Shown here: positions 36,150-43,412 of the stretch, piece after piece
How positions within the stretch are numbered: the first letter of the stretch is position 1
Layout of the letters: the number at the start of each line of letters is the position of its first letter
Assembly (NCBI RefSeq): GCF_004346035.1
Contig: NZ_SLZN01000009.1
Span: forward strand, 1-64,000
Direction: 5' to 3'
Source of the DNA: Acidomonas methanolica
GTDB taxonomy: Bacteria > Pseudomonadota > Alphaproteobacteria > Acetobacterales > Acetobacteraceae
Length of the DNA stretch: 64,000 bases
Translations under genes and position numbers: made by a program
Notes under the pieces: generated by a model
Seen by the model: only the letters and a program-made list of their open reading frames with translations
The model's database searches: none
What the model was told of the DNA's origin: nothing

Positions 36150-36563
36150 TCACGTCAAAACTGCCATGGTGACACGCTTTTCCGTTCGTCCGTCATGTTC
36201 GGCCCTCCTTGACGGTGCTGGTGATGTGGGCGAAAGCCCGTCGATCATCTCGGCATTGATGTCGATCAGCGGTTTGAGCGACGAGTTCGTATTCATGGCT
36301 TGGTTACTCTGAACGAGAACCCATGTGCCGAGTTTGATGACGTCGTTGCGCAGAGTTTCCGGCAAGGGATTGTCCCGGTTCCCGGCTGCACGGAGCAACA
36401 GAGACCACAGCCTGTAGTTCAAGGCGAGGGCCTGACGCCGCGAGGTTCCGCTCGAAGCGCCTTCCAGTTGTTCATTGATTCGGCGGAAAGCGAATAATTC
36501 AGTCTCACGAGGCGAAAGCCCTGAGCCGTCTTGGTTCTGGTAGTATGACGCACCATAAAACAT
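36150..36563 (-). CDS. flaF: FlaF, flagellin secretion/assembly regulator
   Basis: FlaF is an alphaproteobacterial helper of flagellin; in Caulobacter it helps flagellin secretion. The 137-residue product begins MFYGASYYQNQ and contains SPRETELFAFRRINEQLEGA and ALNYRLWSLLLRAAG and then LPETLRNDVIKLGTWV, which match FlaF. AGGAGAT lies just before the ATG. The C-terminal 25 residues are basic and extra. It follows the flagellin gene on the same strand with a 140-bp gap holding a palindromic repeat. No flbT is beside it. Confidence 0.88.
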   Translation of the reverse strand: MFYGASYYQNQDGSGLSPRETELFAFRRINEQLEGASSGTSRRQALALNYRLWSLLLRAAGNRDNPLPETLRNDVIKLGTWVLVQSNQAMNTNSSLKPLIDINAEMIDGLSPTSPAPSRRAEHDGRTEKRVTMAVLT

Positions 36564-36703: not shown

Positions 36704-38242
36704 TTAGCCCCGGAAAAGACTGAGGATTGAAGAGGACTGCGAGTTCGCGATCGAAAGGGATTGAATCGCGAGTTGCTGTTTGGTCTGCAAGGCCGTCAAC
36801 TTCGCGCTTTCCGCCGCCAGATCGGCATCCGTCAGCGCACCCACGCCGCTCGTGAGAGCGTTGGAAAGGCTGCTGGTGGCGCCGCTCAGAACGGAGAGCT
36901 GGTTGGCTGAGGAACCCAACGTGCTGGCGATGGTATTCATCTTGGAGATGGCCGCCTGCACGGCCAGCAACGCGACATTCGCGCCGGTCGCCTCGCTTGC
37001 CGTCCCGGCATAGGTGGTGCCAGTGGACGTCGCCGCCGTGAAGACGCCCGCCGTATTTGAAGCGTCGAGATTATTCCCGGCAATCGTCAACGCGCCGGCG
37101 GCCGACTGGCTCACGCCGAAACCCGCACTCTGCATGGCCGTGATCATGTTGGTCGCGGCGTCACTGCCGGCCGCGCCGGTGCCCACGTTCACGAGGGTGA
37201 GGCTCGTCTCTTTCGTCGCATTCCCGTTCGCATCCGTTGCGGTGACGACGGAATAGTTGAAATTGCCGTTATCATCTTTCGAGACGGTGATCTTCGCGCC
37301 GTTGGTCGCATGATACATCAGGTCGCCATTGGCGCTGACGGTCGCGGCTCCGACGCCGGTCAGGCTGCCATCCGCGTTGACGGTCAGGGTGGTCGCCCCC
37401 GTAAGGGTGGCCAACTGGCTGGCAAGGACCTGCGTGCCGCCCGTCCCCGAGCCGCCGCTCGTTTCAGACGTCAGGGCAGCCGTGCCGGCCGAGGTGTAAT
37501 TCGTGGCGATGAAGACCGATTCGATCGCGGGATTCGAGGCCGATGCGCTGGCTGCCGACGTCCACGCCGTGTTGTTGAGCGTGATGGAGGCGCCGTCTCC
37601 GGCTCCGACGGTTGTCGAGCCTTCCGTCAGGGCGTCCTGGAAGCTTATGGCGCTTGCCGAACCGGAGGTGGGGGTCGCGGAAAACGAAAGCTGAAGTCCC
37701 GCCTGATTGACGTTGAGGCCCGACAAGCCGAGACCGGCGGCCGTCGCGTTGAAGCCGGATTGGGTGAAGAGCGTGCCATTGACGTCCTGAGCGGCGGAAA
37801 CCGACGTATAGGAGACGCCAGCCCCCAATGTGCCGCCGACCAGATTGACGCCCTGGAAAGTGGCGCCCGAGGCGATCGCGTTGATCTGTGTCGCGGCTTG
37901 CGTGAGCGCCGCGTTCATCGTGCTTGCGTTATAGCCTGTGGTTTCGGCGCTGGTTACGGTTTCCGACAGCGAGGAGAGGATGCCGCTGATGGAGGTCATC
38001 GCCTGCGAAGCCGTGGCGACGACCTGGGAGGCGAAGTTCAGGCCGGACTGGACGCCGGACAGCGCGCCGATCTGCGAGTTCATCGTCTGGGCGATGGCGT
38101 ACACCGCCGGATTGTCGGAGGCGCTGGATACGTCCTTGCCGGTAGAGACGCGGCTTTCGGTCTGGTTGAGAGCCGCGGTCGTCTGATCGAGGCTCTGGAG
38201 GGCCGCCATGGCGGCGTTGTTGGTGTTGATCGAGAGTGACAT
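36704..38242 (-). CDS. Flagellin
   Basis: The 512-residue filament protein has the conserved D0/D1 ends: N-terminus MSLSINTNNAAMAALQSLDQ with NQTESRVSTGKDVSSASDNPA, and C-terminus ending ALQTKQQLAIQSLSIANSQS and SSILSLFRG. The middle (about 140-430) is a variable, Thr/Ser/Ala/Gly-rich surface domain. GGAG precedes the ATG. It is preceded by a TPR-glycosyltransferase gene (83-bp gap) and followed by flaF. The many Ser/Thr residues make it a likely O-glycosylation substrate. No sigma-28 or sigma-54 promoter was recognised with confidence. Confidence 0.94.
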   Translation of the reverse strand: MSLSINTNNAAMAALQSLDQTTAALNQTESRVSTGKDVSSASDNPAVYAIAQTMNSQIGALSGVQSGLNFASQVVATASQAMTSISGILSSLSETVTSAETTGYNASTMNAALTQAATQINAIASGATFQGVNLVGGTLGAGVSYTSVSAAQDVNGTLFTQSGFNATAAGLGLSGLNVNQAGLQLSFSATPTSGSASAISFQDALTEGSTTVGAGDGASITLNNTAWTSAASASASNPAIESVFIATNYTSAGTAALTSETSGGSGTGGTQVLASQLATLTGATTLTVNADGSLTGVGAATVSANGDLMYHATNGAKITVSKDDNGNFNYSVVTATDANGNATKETSLTLVNVGTGAAGSDAATNMITAMQSAGFGVSQSAAGALTIAGNNLDASNTAGVFTAATSTGTTYAGTASEATGANVALLAVQAAISKMNTIASTLGSSANQLSVLSGATSSLSNALTSGVGALTDADLAAESAKLTALQTKQQLAIQSLSIANSQSSSILSLFRG

Positions 38243-38325
38243 TGGATTTTTCTCCGGTTTCGCGAATTTTTTCGCAGCGCCAGATCACCACGGGAGTGGT
38301 TAACAGATTCTCAAGACGACAAAAT

Positions 38326-40059
38326 TTATTTTGCCGCCATTTCCATGCGGTCGAACCGCATGCACCGATACGTGTTCGACCAGCGGAAAAGCCGGGCGCG
38401 AAGCTGTTCCGCGACATCGTTCCAGTCTCCCGGAGAGGTCTGCCGGAAAATATGCATCGTGGGGTACCAGGGGGTGTCGGACCGTTTTTCCAGCCAGCGC
38501 CAGCACCCGTCGGACCGTGAGATCATCCACACGGGCAGGCCCAACCCTCCTGCCAGATGGACGATGGATGTATCCACGGCGATGAGCAGGTCGATGCCGA
38601 AGAGCCGCGCCGCCGTGTCGGCGAAATCGCCAATGCCGTCCGTCACATCGACGACTGGCAGGCCGGATGTCCCGATCTGTTGTTTCGCATCGCCCAGTTG
38701 AAAGCTGCAGAACCGGAGTCCCTCCACGGAGAAGAGCGGGCGGAGGGACTCCAGCGGCATGGAGCGACGGCGATCGACGAGGTGGGCGCGTGGTTGGTGC
38801 TTGCGGGCTTCTCCCGCCCAGACGAGGCCCACGACGAGATCCGGCGTCTGGCTCTCTTGTGTCATATGCCGCCTGACTGCACCGCCCTGACGCTCGATTT
38901 CCTTTTCCCCGACGAACAGATAGGGGGCTGACGGGATGGTGTCGGGGGTCAGGCCGAGGCGATAGGGCAGGCTCGCCATCGGCAGATGGTAATCCAGGCG
39001 CAAGTCGGGCGGCAGTATGGTCATGACGCGCGCCACGCCTCGCACGCTTTCGAAAAGCCGCACGAGCGGGAAGCCGACCTGTACCGTTACGCGAGCGCCG
39101 CGCCGGTTCAACTCCTCCGCAAAACGGATGAACTGGAGCGAATCGCCAAATCCCTGCTCGCCATGCAGCAGAATGGATTTTCCGTGCAGATCCTCGCCTT
39201 GCCAGAGCGGCGCCGACAGGTCGGTCCGCATCACCTGGCAATCCTGCCAGCGATATTCGTAGTCTTTCCAGCCTTCCGCGAAATTCCCCGCTTTCAACAG
39301 GGCGGTCGATCGCGAGAAGCGCGTCCGTGGTTCGGTGGGCAGGATGTCCAGCGCGCGGTCGAACGCCGCGACGGCGTCCTCGCTGCGATCGAGGTTGAGC
39401 AGGGCATGGCCGAGATTATGATAGGCCACGCGACTTGCCGGCGAAAGCAGCGTCGCCGTCTCCGCCTCCAGCCGCGCATCCTCGAAACGGCCGCATCCGG
39501 CAAGGGCGGAACTGTAATCGGTATGATAATTCGCGTTGGTCATGTCGGCCGAGCAGGCGTCGCGCAGATGGATGCAGGCTTGCTCGGGTTCCCCCAGAAT
39601 GACCAGACAGCAGCCGAGGCGATGCAGAATGACGCCGTCCGCCGGATTGAGCGCGCGCGCATGCTCGTAATAGGCTCTGGCGCGCTCATGCAGCCCGTCG
39701 CTCTCGAAAGAATTCGCCAGAAGAAAATAGGCCATGGCGGAATGGGGAACGGCCGACGCCGCGAGATCGCGTTGCCGGTGGGCTTCGGGGTGGCGTTTGA
39801 GGCGGCGCAAGCAGATCGCGAGCAGGATGCGGTGCACGAACTGGCCGCCGAGACGGACGCAGCGGTTCAGGGGCGCCAAGGCGCACGCAACGCGTCCCAG
39901 ATTCATTTCACATTCGCCGAGCAACGCCAGGGCGGTGAGGTGGTCCGGCTCGCGCGCCAGCACGGACAGCGCCGCGCGCCGCGCGCCGGGCCAGTCCTGA
40001 CGCTTCATCGCGTCCATGAGCGTCTCGGGGGCAGGGGAGGAAGACGGGACGGTGGCCAT
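38326..40059 (-). CDS. TPR-glycosyltransferase, likely flagellin glycosyltransferase
   Basis: A 577-residue protein. The N-terminal 270 residues are TPR repeats (for example AVAAFDRALDILPTEPRTRF); the C-terminal 300 residues are a GT-B-type glycosyltransferase with LLHGEQGFGDSLQFIRFAEE, VVGLVWAGEARKH, and VDTSIVHLAGGLGLPVWMI then the WYPTMHIFRQ loop. This TPR plus glycosyltransferase layout beside flagellin matches FlmG of Caulobacter, which glycosylates flagellin after binding it through TPRs. AAGGAG lies ahead of the ATG. The donor sugar is unknown and no pseudaminic or legionaminic acid genes are in the window. Confidence 0.7.
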   Translation of the reverse strand: MATVPSSSPAPETLMDAMKRQDWPGARRAALSVLAREPDHLTALALLGECEMNLGRVACALAPLNRCVRLGGQFVHRILLAICLRRLKRHPEAHRQRDLAASAVPHSAMAYFLLANSFESDGLHERARAYYEHARALNPADGVILHRLGCCLVILGEPEQACIHLRDACSADMTNANYHTDYSSALAGCGRFEDARLEAETATLLSPASRVAYHNLGHALLNLDRSEDAVAAFDRALDILPTEPRTRFSRSTALLKAGNFAEGWKDYEYRWQDCQVMRTDLSAPLWQGEDLHGKSILLHGEQGFGDSLQFIRFAEELNRRGARVTVQVGFPLVRLFESVRGVARVMTILPPDLRLDYHLPMASLPYRLGLTPDTIPSAPYLFVGEKEIERQGGAVRRHMTQESQTPDLVVGLVWAGEARKHQPRAHLVDRRRSMPLESLRPLFSVEGLRFCSFQLGDAKQQIGTSGLPVVDVTDGIGDFADTAARLFGIDLLIAVDTSIVHLAGGLGLPVWMISRSDGCWRWLEKRSDTPWYPTMHIFRQTSPGDWNDVAEQLRARLFRWSNTYRCMRFDRMEMAAK

Positions 40060-40105: not shown

Positions 40106-41785
40106 TCATTTCCGTGGCGCGGATTTTTGGTCGTTCGGGGGAGGCTCGGCCAGAAGAGGTTCGGCGAGCGTCGGATAGAGCTTGATCAATCCCAGCAACG
40201 TGCCGTTGGTCCAGCCGAAGCCGATCTGCATGGGATATTCGCCGCCTCCCGGGCCGCCGACCGGGCTGACATCCGGCGAGACGACATCGTATTTCTCCAG
40301 AAACACCCCGGATGTCCGCCACGTCCCGACGACGCGGCGCATCCATCGCTCGGCGATCATCCGCGCCAGATCGTCCTTGCCGTATCGGACCAGTCCGCGC
40401 ACGGCCATCCATTCCAGCGGCGCCCAGCCATTGGGCGAATCCCATTGCTGGCCCGTGTGCTGCGTCGTGGCGACGATTCCGCCGGGGGCGCTCAATCGGG
40501 CGCGCGAGGTCCGCTCCAGGCGATCGGCCTGCTCCTGGCTGGCCAGGTGAAGGAAGAGCGGCATGAACGTCGCCGCCGAGAGCACGCCGGTGGTTGCGCC
40601 TTTCGTCCAGTCATAATCGCTCCAAGCGCCGAGCCGGGGATCGAACATGAGGCGGTCGATGGCGGCGAGCCGCGTCCGGGCGCGCGCCGTCCATGCCGCC
40701 GATTCCGCTCCGTCGGTGGCGCGGGAGATCGTTTGTTCGAGATGTGCGAGCAGGGCGTTGAGATCGATGGGCAGAAGGTCGGTCGTGTGGATCGTGACGA
40801 GGCTGTGCCCGTCCGCGAGCCAGCGGCTGCTGAAGTCCCAGCCCGATTCCGCCGCCGCCCGGAGATCGCGATAGACCTCGCCGGGAGGGCGGCCCGATCG
40901 CGCGGCGGTGGCGATGTCCTCGGGGTAGCTCTCGTCGCGCGGCGTGTCGAGATCGTCCCAGTAGCGGTTCAGCACGGTGCCGTCGGCGAGGCGCACCACA
41001 TGGCGATGCGCCTGGCCGGGCGCGAGGCGCTCCGCCCCTTCCATCCAGTAGGCATATTCGCGCTTCATTTCGGGCAGGAAACGGCGAAGGGTCTGCGGTC
41101 CCTCATGCCTGGCCAGCAATTCGACCATCAGTGCGAAAAAGGGTGGCTGCGAGCGGCTGAGATAATAGGTGCGCGTCCCGTTCGGAACGTGTCCGTAACG
41201 GTCGATCAGCGACGCCATGTCCCGCACCATGTCCTCGACGAGATCCATATGGCCGCTCTCGGCCAGGCCGATCATGGTGAAGTAGGAATCCCAATAATAA
41301 AGTTCCGTAAACCGGCCGCCGGGGACCACATAGGGGTAGGGCAGCGGCAGAAGGGAGGAATAGGGGACGGGTTTGTCGGGGCCGCGCGTCAGGACGCGCC
41401 ACATGCCGTCGATATAGTCCGGAACCGTTTCGTTCCGCGAGACACGATAGATGACGCCCGCCGGGGGGTGGAAGGTGAAGTGCCGGCGCACGAAATCGGC
41501 GAGGACGAAGCCGGGCCGGGCCTTTTCCGCGCGCCAGAGGCGGAGGAGCGCCTCGGGCGCGCGGTCGGGCGTCGCGTCCGCCACGGATTTGAAATCGGGA
41601 AAGAGATGCGCGTCACCGATCGCCGCGAACAGCCCGTCCAGCGCGATGGAGGGAGGGCGGAGATCCTGCGGCGCGACCATCTGGCGCGCCATGGCCGGCG
41701 GCGTGAACGGGACCGGCGGCCGGGCGGCGGCGGGACTCGCCGTCAGGACTGCGGCGATCAGAAGCGCCCCTGTCTCTCTCCTCAT
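40106..41785 (-). CDS. treA: Periplasmic trehalase (GH37)
   Basis: Hydrolyses alpha,alpha-trehalose to two glucoses in the periplasm. The 559-residue protein begins with a Sec signal (MRRETGALLIAAVLTASPAAA) and has both GH37 signatures: PGGRFTELYYWDSYFTMIG (first) and QWDSPNGWAPLEWMAV (second). DGLFAAIGDAHLFPDFKSVADATP is the usual N-terminal region. AAGGAA lies before the ATG. A 46-bp gap separates it from the TPR-glycosyltransferase gene downstream, so read-through is possible. It diverges from tldD. Confidence 0.93.
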   Translation of the reverse strand: MRRETGALLIAAVLTASPAAARPPVPFTPPAMARQMVAPQDLRPPSIALDGLFAAIGDAHLFPDFKSVADATPDRAPEALLRLWRAEKARPGFVLADFVRRHFTFHPPAGVIYRVSRNETVPDYIDGMWRVLTRGPDKPVPYSSLLPLPYPYVVPGGRFTELYYWDSYFTMIGLAESGHMDLVEDMVRDMASLIDRYGHVPNGTRTYYLSRSQPPFFALMVELLARHEGPQTLRRFLPEMKREYAYWMEGAERLAPGQAHRHVVRLADGTVLNRYWDDLDTPRDESYPEDIATAARSGRPPGEVYRDLRAAAESGWDFSSRWLADGHSLVTIHTTDLLPIDLNALLAHLEQTISRATDGAESAAWTARARTRLAAIDRLMFDPRLGAWSDYDWTKGATTGVLSAATFMPLFLHLASQEQADRLERTSRARLSAPGGIVATTQHTGQQWDSPNGWAPLEWMAVRGLVRYGKDDLARMIAERWMRRVVGTWRTSGVFLEKYDVVSPDVSPVGGPGGGEYPMQIGFGWTNGTLLGLIKLYPTLAEPLLAEPPPNDQKSAPRK

Positions 41786-41842
41786 CTCTGTTCCTTTTCC
41801 GCCGTCGCTTGGTCGCCCCCGTCCGCCGCCTGTGGCGGAAGC

Positions 41843-41881
41843 GCGAGAGGCCGAGAGACGTTTCGCGCAACGGCCTCTCGC
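41843..41881. promoter_or_regulatory. 11-bp inverted repeat in the treA-tldD divergent gap
   Basis: GCGAGAGGCCG (41843-41853) and CGGCCTCTCGC (41871-41881) are perfect inverse complements over 17 bases, in the 157-bp gap between the divergent starts. It could be an operator or a leader hairpin. Confidence 0.4.
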
Positions 41882-41942
41882 AATCGCGCGGGGAAAGCGC
41901 CATGTTGGACGAAGTCCCGTTCAGGAAAAGTGTTCCCGCCCC

Positions 41943-43412
41943 ATGAGTTCCCGTTTCGCCGCCGATCGCGCCCCCCTTTCCGCCCTTGCCGCCACCGAGA
42001 CGGTGTTCTTCAGTGGCGCGCAGGCCCGGCTGACGCGGGACGAGGCGGCGACTCTGGTGCGGGAGTCGCTGGAGGGGACGGATGACGGCGAATTGTTTCT
42101 GGAATATCGGGAAAGCGAATCGCTGACCCTAGATGAAGGGGTGATCCGGTCCGCCAATTTCGACACGAGTTCGGGCTTTGGACTTCGCGCCGTTCTGGGA
42201 ACGGAGACAGGATTCGCGCATTCGGATGACATCAGCCGTCCGGCGCTCAGGCGGGCGGGCGATGCGGTCGGTCAGGTCCGGCAGGGGCGTTCGGGCACGC
42301 TTGCCGCGCCGCCCGCGGCCACCAACCGCCGCCTCTACGCCGAGAACGATCCGCGCGAGGGAACCGACTTCGCCCGCCGCGCCGCGCTGCTTTCGGAGAT
42401 CGACGCCTATGCCCGCGCGCTCGATCCCCGGATCGTGCAGGTCAGCGCCTCGCTGTCCTCCGAATGGCAGGCGGTGCGCATCCTGCGGCGCGAAGGTGAG
42501 GACGTGGCGGATCTGCGTCCTCTGGTGCGGCTGAACATCTCGGTGGTGGTCGAGCAGGACGGGCGGCGCGAGAGCGGCGGACGGGGATTGGGCGGCCGCT
42601 ACGACGTGCGGCGTCTGATGGAGGCCGAGACATGGAAGGCGGCGGCGGACGAGGCGTTGCGCCGGGCGCTGGTCTCGCTGGACGCGGCGCCCGCGCCGGC
42701 GGGCGAGATGGACGTGGTGCTCGGGCCGGGCTGGCCGGGAATTCTGCTGCATGAGGCGGTCGGGCACGGGCTCGAAGGCGATTTCAACCGCAAGGGCACG
42801 TCCTGCTTCGCCGAGATGCTCGGTCAGCGTGTCGCCGCGCCCGGCGTAACGGTGATCGATGACGGCACCCTTCCCGAGGCGCGCGGCTCGCTGACCATCG
42901 ACGACGAGGGCACGCCGAGCGGGCGCACCGTGATGATCGAGGACGGCATCTTGCGCGGTTTCATCCAGGACCGGCTGAATGCCCGGCTCACCGGCGTCGC
43001 CCCGACCGGGAACGGCCGTCGTCAGTCCTATGCCCATGCCCCGATGCCGCGCATGACCAACACCCTGATGCTGGGCGGCGATGTCACGACGGAGGAGATG
43101 ATCCGCTCGACGCGGCGCGGGATTTACGCCGTGGATTTCGGCGGCGGACAGGTGGACATCACCTCGGGCAAGTTCGTCTTCGCCATGTCCGAGGCCTATC
43201 TGATCGAGGACGGGAAGGTGACGCGCCCGGTGAAGGGGGCGACGCTGATCGGCTCCGGTGCGGAGGCGATGCGGCGGATTTCCATGATCGGCGCGGATAT
43301 GGAACTCGATCCCGGGATCGGCACGTGCGGCAAGGCGGGGCAGGGCGTGCCGGTCGGCGTCGGTCAGCCGACGCTGAAGCTCTCCGGCCTTACCGTGGGC
43401 GGGACGGGCTGA
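41943..43412 (+). CDS. tldD: TldD metalloprotease subunit
   Basis: TldD is the zinc-protease half of the TldD/TldE complex, which trims unfolded or modified peptides. The 489-residue protein has the HEAVGHGLEGDFN motif (zinc ligands and catalytic Glu) and the family stretches SGFGLRAVLGTETGFAHSDD, SLDAAPAPAGEMDVVLGPGW, NTLMLGGDVTTEEMI and GTCGKAGQGVPVGVGQPTL. No tldE/pmbA is adjacent, as is usual. The ATG at 41943 fits the family start; longer in-frame sequence upstream is antisense to treA and is rejected. Confidence 0.94.
   Translation: MSSRFAADRAPLSALAATETVFFSGAQARLTRDEAATLVRESLEGTDDGELFLEYRESESLTLDEGVIRSANFDTSSGFGLRAVLGTETGFAHSDDISRPALRRAGDAVGQVRQGRSGTLAAPPAATNRRLYAENDPREGTDFARRAALLSEIDAYARALDPRIVQVSASLSSEWQAVRILRREGEDVADLRPLVRLNISVVVEQDGRRESGGRGLGGRYDVRRLMEAETWKAAADEALRRALVSLDAAPAPAGEMDVVLGPGWPGILLHEAVGHGLEGDFNRKGTSCFAEMLGQRVAAPGVTVIDDGTLPEARGSLTIDDEGTPSGRTVMIEDGILRGFIQDRLNARLTGVAPTGNGRRQSYAHAPMPRMTNTLMLGGDVTTEEMIRSTRRGIYAVDFGGGQVDITSGKFVFAMSEAYLIEDGKVTRPVKGATLIGSGAEAMRRISMIGADMELDPGIGTCGKAGQGVPVGVGQPTLKLSGLTVGGTG

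Follow-up and report, generated by a model that had tools for sequence, protein, structure and literature searches.

The window analysed here, the whole 64,000-nucleotide stretch of DNA, lies on contig C9 of a 3.68-Mb genome. On one strand it carries a trehalase gene, the gene for a TPR-glycosyltransferase (TPR-GT; the enzyme under study), a flagellin gene and flaF, in that order. The features of the locus are as follows.

36150..36563, minus strand: flaF, flagellin secretion chaperone/regulator (PF07309, 90.3 bits)
36704..38242, minus strand: flagellin gene, 512 aa, with a long central domain; presumed acceptor (PF00669 and PF00700 above cut-off)
38243..38325, minus strand: 83-nt gap between the enzyme and flagellin genes (ORF coordinates, simple scan)
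38326..40059, minus strand: TPR-glycosyltransferase gene, 577 aa (ORF and ribosome-binding site, Pfam, AlphaFold2, Foldseek/VIA)
38548..38577, minus strand: donor-site motif VDTSIVHLAG, residues 495-504, with D496, T497 and H501 (coordinates computed from the ORF)
39130..39159, minus strand: EQGFGDSLQF, the glycine loop at residues 301-310 (position derived from the ORF)
40106..41785, minus strand: trehalase gene, separated from the enzyme gene by 46 nt on its upstream side (PF01204)

The enzyme ORF starts with an ATG at 40059, preceded by an AAGGAG ribosome-binding site. It lies just upstream of the flagellin gene, as the first-pass annotation had described, and the two genes share a strand and are separated by 83 nt. 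A simple scan of the minus strand of this gap, covering promoters of the sigma-70 type only, detected neither a promoter-like nor a terminator-like site, and a promoter in the gap was rejected on this basis. The trehalase gene was also rejected as a component of the system; none was seen at the corresponding place in two relatives (G575 and G022), and trehalase is probably unrelated to the enzyme. A TldD-like gene, named by eye, adjoins the enzyme gene in G575 (L261:4191-5663) and lies past the trehalase gene in the window (41451-43412). These gene orders suggest that the trehalase gene was inserted between the enzyme and TldD-like genes in the window lineage.

A Pfam search of the 577-aa enzyme returned TPR families with scores well over cut-off and no glycosyltransferase family over cut-off, with GT9 (PF01075) appearing sub-threshold at 11.5 bits versus 22 (E 0.18). 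The GT-B part was therefore decided from a structure model, which was calculated by AlphaFold2 from 42 aligned sequences and had a mean pLDDT of 95.0 and a pTM of 0.91. In this model, TPR helices occupy approximately residues 11-272, and a GT-B domain of two alpha/beta lobes occupies approximately residues 285-565. Model residues 288-564 superpose on the solved GT9 enzyme 3tov (VIA-align 2; Z 17.8, 254 residues, 3.1 Å rmsd), which is the only GT9 row among the 50 VIA-align 2 matches listed, there being no WaaC row among them. When the whole model was submitted to Foldseek, SPINDLY and OGT ranked first (best E 2.5e-15). The model confirms the predicted arrangement, with TPRs at the N terminus and a GT-B glycosyltransferase domain at the C terminus; the two domains proposed in the first-pass annotation are thus upheld, the TPRs by their Pfam scores and the GT-B domain by AlphaFold2, Foldseek and VIA. 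Within the glycine loop, residues E301, G303, G305 and D306 are invariant across the A1 alignment of the enzyme and its relatives, and are also kept in the FlmG set described below.

This layout is shared with FlmG of Caulobacter crescentus, which at 596 aa is of similar length, likewise has an N-terminal TPR and a C-terminal GT-B domain, and lies in a flagellin/FlaF locus. According to the accessible portion of PMC7591256, FlmG is a TPR plus GT-B protein that is required for flagellin modification and depends on pseudaminic acid, its modification of flagellin has been shown experimentally, and it defines a class of cytoplasmic O-glycosyltransferases whose sugar is pseudaminic acid. The comparison set used here (the FlmG set) consists of 19 rows of ~600-aa TPR-GTs that are mostly encoded beside flagellin, FlaF and FlbT, one row coming from another family (G027); its assignment derives from protein length, flagellin/FlaF/FlbT neighbours and a PseH-like gene in G506, and not from the published C. 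crescentus FlmG itself. The Caulobacteraceae-like family was located by its similarity to an FljK query sequence, to which the flagellin of G506 is 92% identical. In G506 the FlmG-set gene has as neighbours FlaF, FlbT and an acetyltransferase resembling PseH, whose score of 90.1 bits falls just short of the cut-off of 93.1.

The window enzyme is 25-29% identical to members of the FlmG set. The A1 profile of the enzyme and its relatives (42 hand-picked rows, including 14 of the 15 orthologues, with G675 left out) and the FlmG profile (A3) align over 507 columns in hhalign with a probability of 100 and an E-value of 3e-76, and by this measure the enzyme is a remote full-length homologue of FlmG. 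The window protein scores 439.5 bits with the non-FlmG TPR-GT profile versus 114.8 bits with the FlmG profile, a comparison that leans one way as the window sequence is itself included in the non-FlmG profile. A quick maximum-likelihood tree was built from 92 of 237 non-redundant GT domains, comprising all 15 orthologues, 19 of the 20 members of the FlmG score group and others chosen partly at random. In this tree the 19 FlmG rows form one clade (99) and, together with one Rhodospirillaceae domain, separate from the remaining 72 rows with an SH-aLRT of 99; the 15 window orthologues form a separate clade (100) nested among Rhodospirillales TPR-GTs (94). Constraining FlmG and the window orthologues to a single clade costs 28.4 lnL units and is not rejected by the AU test (p 0.188). 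In view of this AU result, it is by its active site and its donor pathway, and not by clade, that the enzyme is set apart from FlmG here. A paralogue on contig C2 of the same genome (576 aa, L058:8068-9798) was also considered as the true FlmG and rejected: it does not appear in the list of the 45 best FlmG-query matches, and in the tree it joins generic TPR-GTs on a very long branch.

In the donor site, a joint alignment distinguishes the two groups. D496 and H501 are present in 14/14 orthologues and 28/28 other TPR-GTs versus none of the 19 FlmG rows, and T497 in 14/14 orthologues and 27/28 other TPR-GTs versus a single FlmG row. At the columns of residues 496, 497 and 501 the FlmG set has S/A/P/M, N (18/19) and N/A, respectively. 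R312, found in all 42 non-FlmG rows, is N, G or S in the FlmG set, and the W520-R521-W522 of the non-FlmG rows becomes W-T/P/A-x. When a GT-domain profile was searched against PDB sequences at E <= 10, four matches were obtained: three WaaC heptosyltransferases (weak, E 0.064-0.066) and one de novo design; the WaaC matches fall exactly on the donor motif (VDTGLSHL). We take it that WaaC contacts ADP-heptose through residues of this D-[ST]-x-x-x-H motif. Against a small GT9 profile built from five proteins of the relatives' genomes, the enzyme gave a match of 96.7% probability with an E-value of 3.7e-10, in which its VDTSIVHLA falls on NDSGLMHLA; FlmG reached 37.9% (E 3.4e-4) with the same profile. 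From these alignments, FlmG looks like a branch with an altered phosphate/nucleotide site, consistent with a CMP-linked donor, and the window enzyme keeps the donor site typical of NDP-sugar enzymes.

The altered donor site accompanies a nonulosonate pathway in a second family. In G037, the flagellin-side TPR-GT scores 191.7 bits with the FlmG profile versus 107.8 bits with the non-FlmG profile, lacks the D and H of the motif, and is encoded beside PseB, PseC and NeuB genes. A counter-example to a strict rule is provided by G025, where NeuB is present and a D-T-H type TPR-GT lies ~4 kb from flagellin. The G037 region (L064:6519-10511), which is outside the Caulobacteraceae, brings together an FlmG-type TPR-GT, flagellin, PseB, PseC and a NeuB match, and is apparently a self-contained flagellin-pseudaminylation locus. 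Sequence comparison found FlmG-like proteins in other genera and families, and FlmG-type enzymes outside Caulobacter are not new as such. An FlmG of Brevundimonas has reportedly been published already.

The first-pass annotation had held that the donor-sugar pathway must lie elsewhere and had called for a search for nonulosonate genes. This search returned no NeuB (PF03102) match in the window genome, which is rated 100% complete, nor in 23 genomes of the same family; NeuB was detected in 7 of the 40 genomes of the search and in 9 of 14 controls, Caulobacter included. In the window genome PF02348 matches a single protein, which proved to be KdsB (338.5 bits; cut-off 281); the Caulobacter-like G506 has four such matches. 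With NeuB missing and KdsB as the sole CMP-sugar synthetase, there is no known nonulosonate route in the window genome. The hldE gene for ADP-heptose is present in this genome (195.3 bits, cut-off 181.5) and in all 19 genomes examined, counting the window's own (one of the other 18 scores below cut-off); ADP-heptose should therefore be available, though such a universal gene does not tell the donors apart. Ordinary GT9 enzymes are represented in the window genome as well, by two strong matches. Maf (PF01973) was matched in none of nine genomes including the window's, a weak negative in that the controls were positive only in archaea and the bacterial controls were silent.

The enzyme is accordingly not filed as FlmG, because it carries another donor-site signature and its genome holds no known nonulosonate pathway. 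Of the original label "FlmG-type", the FlmG-like layout is borne out, as are the remote homology and the flagellin/FlaF locus; the donor motif, the donor pathway and the profile score are not those of the FlmG family.

The linkage of the enzyme to flagellin was followed through the family. The order TPR-GT, flagellin and FlaF on the same strand occurs in three further genera, represented by G022 (51% identity to the window enzyme), G575 (52%) and G009, in which the enzyme is a more distant paralogue (36% identity); Pfam was used to check FlaF of G022 and G009 and the flagellin of G009. Orthologues of the enzyme are 44-54% identical to the window protein. A close orthologue (E <= 1e-115) is present in 15 of 299 family genomes, a long flagellin (E <= 1e-70, or two gene pieces as in G626 and G774) in 16, and both in 11, and the two occur together in one genome in 7 of 102 genera. 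The one-sided Fisher test for this co-occurrence gives 1.6e-13 by genome and 7e-7 by genus, values that are uncorrected for kinship and that follow from cut-offs chosen once the tables had been seen. The enzyme gene lies less than 3 kb from the long flagellin in 5 of the 15 orthologue genomes (G000, G575, G022, G525 and G546). In G552 the orthologue lies ~2 kb after flgE-, flgK- and flgL-like genes, the flgL-like protein matching flagellin domains only, with the N-terminal one below cut-off. No flagellin was seen near the orthologue within the stretches read in seven of the 15 genomes (G006, G790, G627, G676, G582, G713 and G774); this reading of neighbourhoods left out G626 and G675, along with L268, L269 and part of L270. 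The long flagellin is absent from four of the 15 orthologue genomes. On account of these seven and four genomes, the link between enzyme and flagellin is recurrent, not strict. The TPR-GT superfamily is itself huge, which counts against the flagellin reading: 151 of 299 family genomes have a member matching at E <= 1e-62. Two other TPR-GTs of the window genome lie at non-flagellar loci. One genome of the same family, G014, contains 38 matches to the TPR-GT query at E <= 0.001.

A scan of named genomes found 65 loci encoding relatives of the enzyme, seven of which have flagellin, FlaF or FlbT in the flanks that were fetched. At four of the 65, all from Geomonas, non-FlmG (D-T-H) TPR-GTs lie directly upstream of flagellin, followed by FlbT and FlaF. 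At the Geomonas loci (L121:5073-12392, L123, L140 and L145) the TPR-GTs are a tandem pair of proteins, one with three GT domains and the other with two; in L121 a flgL-like gene is located on their other side. NeuB had no match in the Geomonas stretches fetched. Judging from the tree, TPR-GTs appear to adjoin flagellin on at least three separate branches, namely FlmG, the window clade and Geomonas, with G009 perhaps forming a fourth. The titles and abstract openings found in the literature on Acetobacteraceae, Gluconobacter/Gluconacetobacter, Azospirillum, TPR flagellin glycosyltransferases and flagellin heptose mention neither this enzyme nor a flagellin carrying heptose; for TPR-GTs beyond FlmG and Maf, the nearest remarks come from the accessible portion of PMC13317340.

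The flagellin of the window was initially described as having a Ser/Thr-rich variable domain. Ser and Thr together make up 27.9% of its middle part, 28.0% of its first 150 residues and 28.0% of its last 100, and the middle of the long flagellins of G714, G745 and G780, relatives without a close orthologue of the enzyme, contains 26-30% Ser+Thr. The ~28% Ser/Thr content is therefore real but not diagnostic, the conserved ends being equally rich; it is a property of these flagellins as whole proteins and is uninformative on glycosylation, and Ser/Thr richness was rejected as a sign of it. Two flagellin types are seen in the family: a short type of ~300 aa, often encoded beside FlbT and FlaF, and a long type of ~490-530 aa encoded beside FlaF, mostly with no FlbT match within the stretches read. 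A radical-SAM-like gene and a second gene, both named by eye, repeatedly adjoin the long flagellin in relatives (L260:8278-11000, L262:4161-6241 and L277:7763-10491).

Several known systems resemble the enzyme in part. The GT9 heptosyltransferases (WaaC; 3tov) share its GT-B fold and D-[ST]-x-x-x-H motif, although the window protein falls below the Pfam GT9 cut-off; the GT9 enzymes known to us act on LPS and are without TPRs. The GT41 enzymes (O-GlcNAc transferase, SPINDLY) also join a TPR superhelix to a GT-B domain and are the top Foldseek matches, but the likeness is one of fold only, with 10-16% identity in full-length Foldseek matches, and no GT41 family was matched in the enzyme by Pfam at E <= 1. 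The Maf flagellin glycosyltransferases parallel its proposed role in that they O-glycosylate flagellin in the cytoplasm ahead of export, but they are a separate family, and no Maf/MptE-like domain (PF01973) is among the Pfam families found in the enzyme at E <= 1. The TibC/AAH autotransporter heptosyltransferases, as described in the accessible portion of PMC4358343, are GT-B transferases that glycosylate protein, as proposed for the enzyme, with ADP-heptose as the donor of TibC; unlike the enzyme, they have autotransporter acceptors, and TibC is a dodecamer with a beta-barrel and an iron finger in place of TPRs.

Taken with the domain architecture and the locus, these data make the enzyme probably a cytoplasmic flagellin O-glycosyltransferase of the TPR plus GT-B kind that uses a nucleotide-diphosphate sugar and not a nonulosonate. 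Because the enzyme recurrently adjoins flagellin and flaF, flagellin is its likely acceptor, and to this extent the earlier proposal that the enzyme glycosylates the flagellin is retained; the part that is given up is an FlmG-type donor. We infer flagellin as the acceptor, the O-linkage, the donor class and the timing relative to FlaF as follows. The TPR superhelix would hold freshly synthesised flagellin in the cytoplasm ahead of its FlaF-dependent export; the GT-B domain would move a sugar from a nucleotide-diphosphate sugar to Ser or Thr residues of the filament-exposed central domain. The enzyme would thereby work like FlmG but from another branch of the same superfamily, with a donor that is predicted not to be pseudaminic, legionaminic or sialic acid. 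The leading single donor candidate is ADP-heptose, whose enzymes carry this motif and whose gene hldE is present in the genome, but it is put forward tentatively, as a minority bet; UDP-GlcNAc, UDP-Glc, dTDP-sugars and CMP-Kdo stay on the list of candidates.

The acceptor could instead be a glycolipid or some different protein, secreted or at the surface, with the adjacency to flagellin being incidental or historical. The seven of 15 genomes with no flagellin beside the orthologue in the stretches read fit such an acceptor, as do the two TPR-GTs at non-flagellar loci of the window genome; we nevertheless regard it as unlikely, given that the adjacency recurs in several genera, that the orthologue co-occurs with the long flagellin and that Geomonas provides a parallel. 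The CMP-Kdo option deserves separate mention: KdsB is present, and of the CMP-sugars CMP-Kdo is the only one for which a synthetase was found in the genome. According to the available portions of PMC11339370 and PMC7591256, Kdo can serve a Maf enzyme of Clostridium botulinum in E. coli, and the window enzyme might treat CMP-Kdo as a nonulosonate-like donor. Its donor motif, however, is that of the NDP-sugar family GT9 and not the altered motif of the CMP-Pse-using FlmG, which makes Kdo transfer improbable.

A true FlmG function, in which a nonulosonic acid (Pse/Leg-like) is transferred to flagellin by way of a pathway that was missed, is more improbable still. The shared architecture and kind of locus and the remote homology speak for it, and a joint clade of FlmG and the window orthologues survives the AU test (p 0.188). 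Against these stand the lack of NeuB in a 100%-complete genome and in 23 others of the family, the position of KdsB as sole CMP-sugar synthetase, a donor motif that differs from that of FlmG in 42/42 rows, and the company kept by FlmG-type proteins that have lost the motif, which have PseB/PseC/NeuB as neighbours in G037 and a PseH-like gene nearby in G506. Another possible role is that of a chaperone or assembly factor for flagellin with an inactive GT-B domain, as TPR proteins frequently serve as chaperones; the retention of all of the conserved residues E301, G303, G305, D306, D496 and H501 makes this the least probable reading of those considered here.

A wider and more speculative scheme extends the preferred reading of an NDP-sugar-using flagellin O-glycosyltransferase. 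Besides FlmG there may be a second, independent lineage of TPR flagellin O-glycosyltransferases, to which the enzyme would belong; this lineage would retain an ancestral GT9-type NDP-sugar site and transfer heptose from ADP-heptose, and would be represented in this family and by the tandem multi-domain versions of Geomonas. FlmG would then be a derived branch in which D-T-x-x-x-H was lost on the switch to CMP-nonulosonates. This scheme as a whole is doubtful.

The locus points to TPR-GTs adjoining flagellin also in bacteria without the known nonulosonate genes. The TPR plus GT-B architecture alone is accordingly poor ground for predicting "FlmG, pseudaminic acid". Residues D496, T497 and H501, as opposed to the S/N/N of FlmG, may separate two donor classes, and the choice of donor in the TPR-GT superfamily becomes directly testable.
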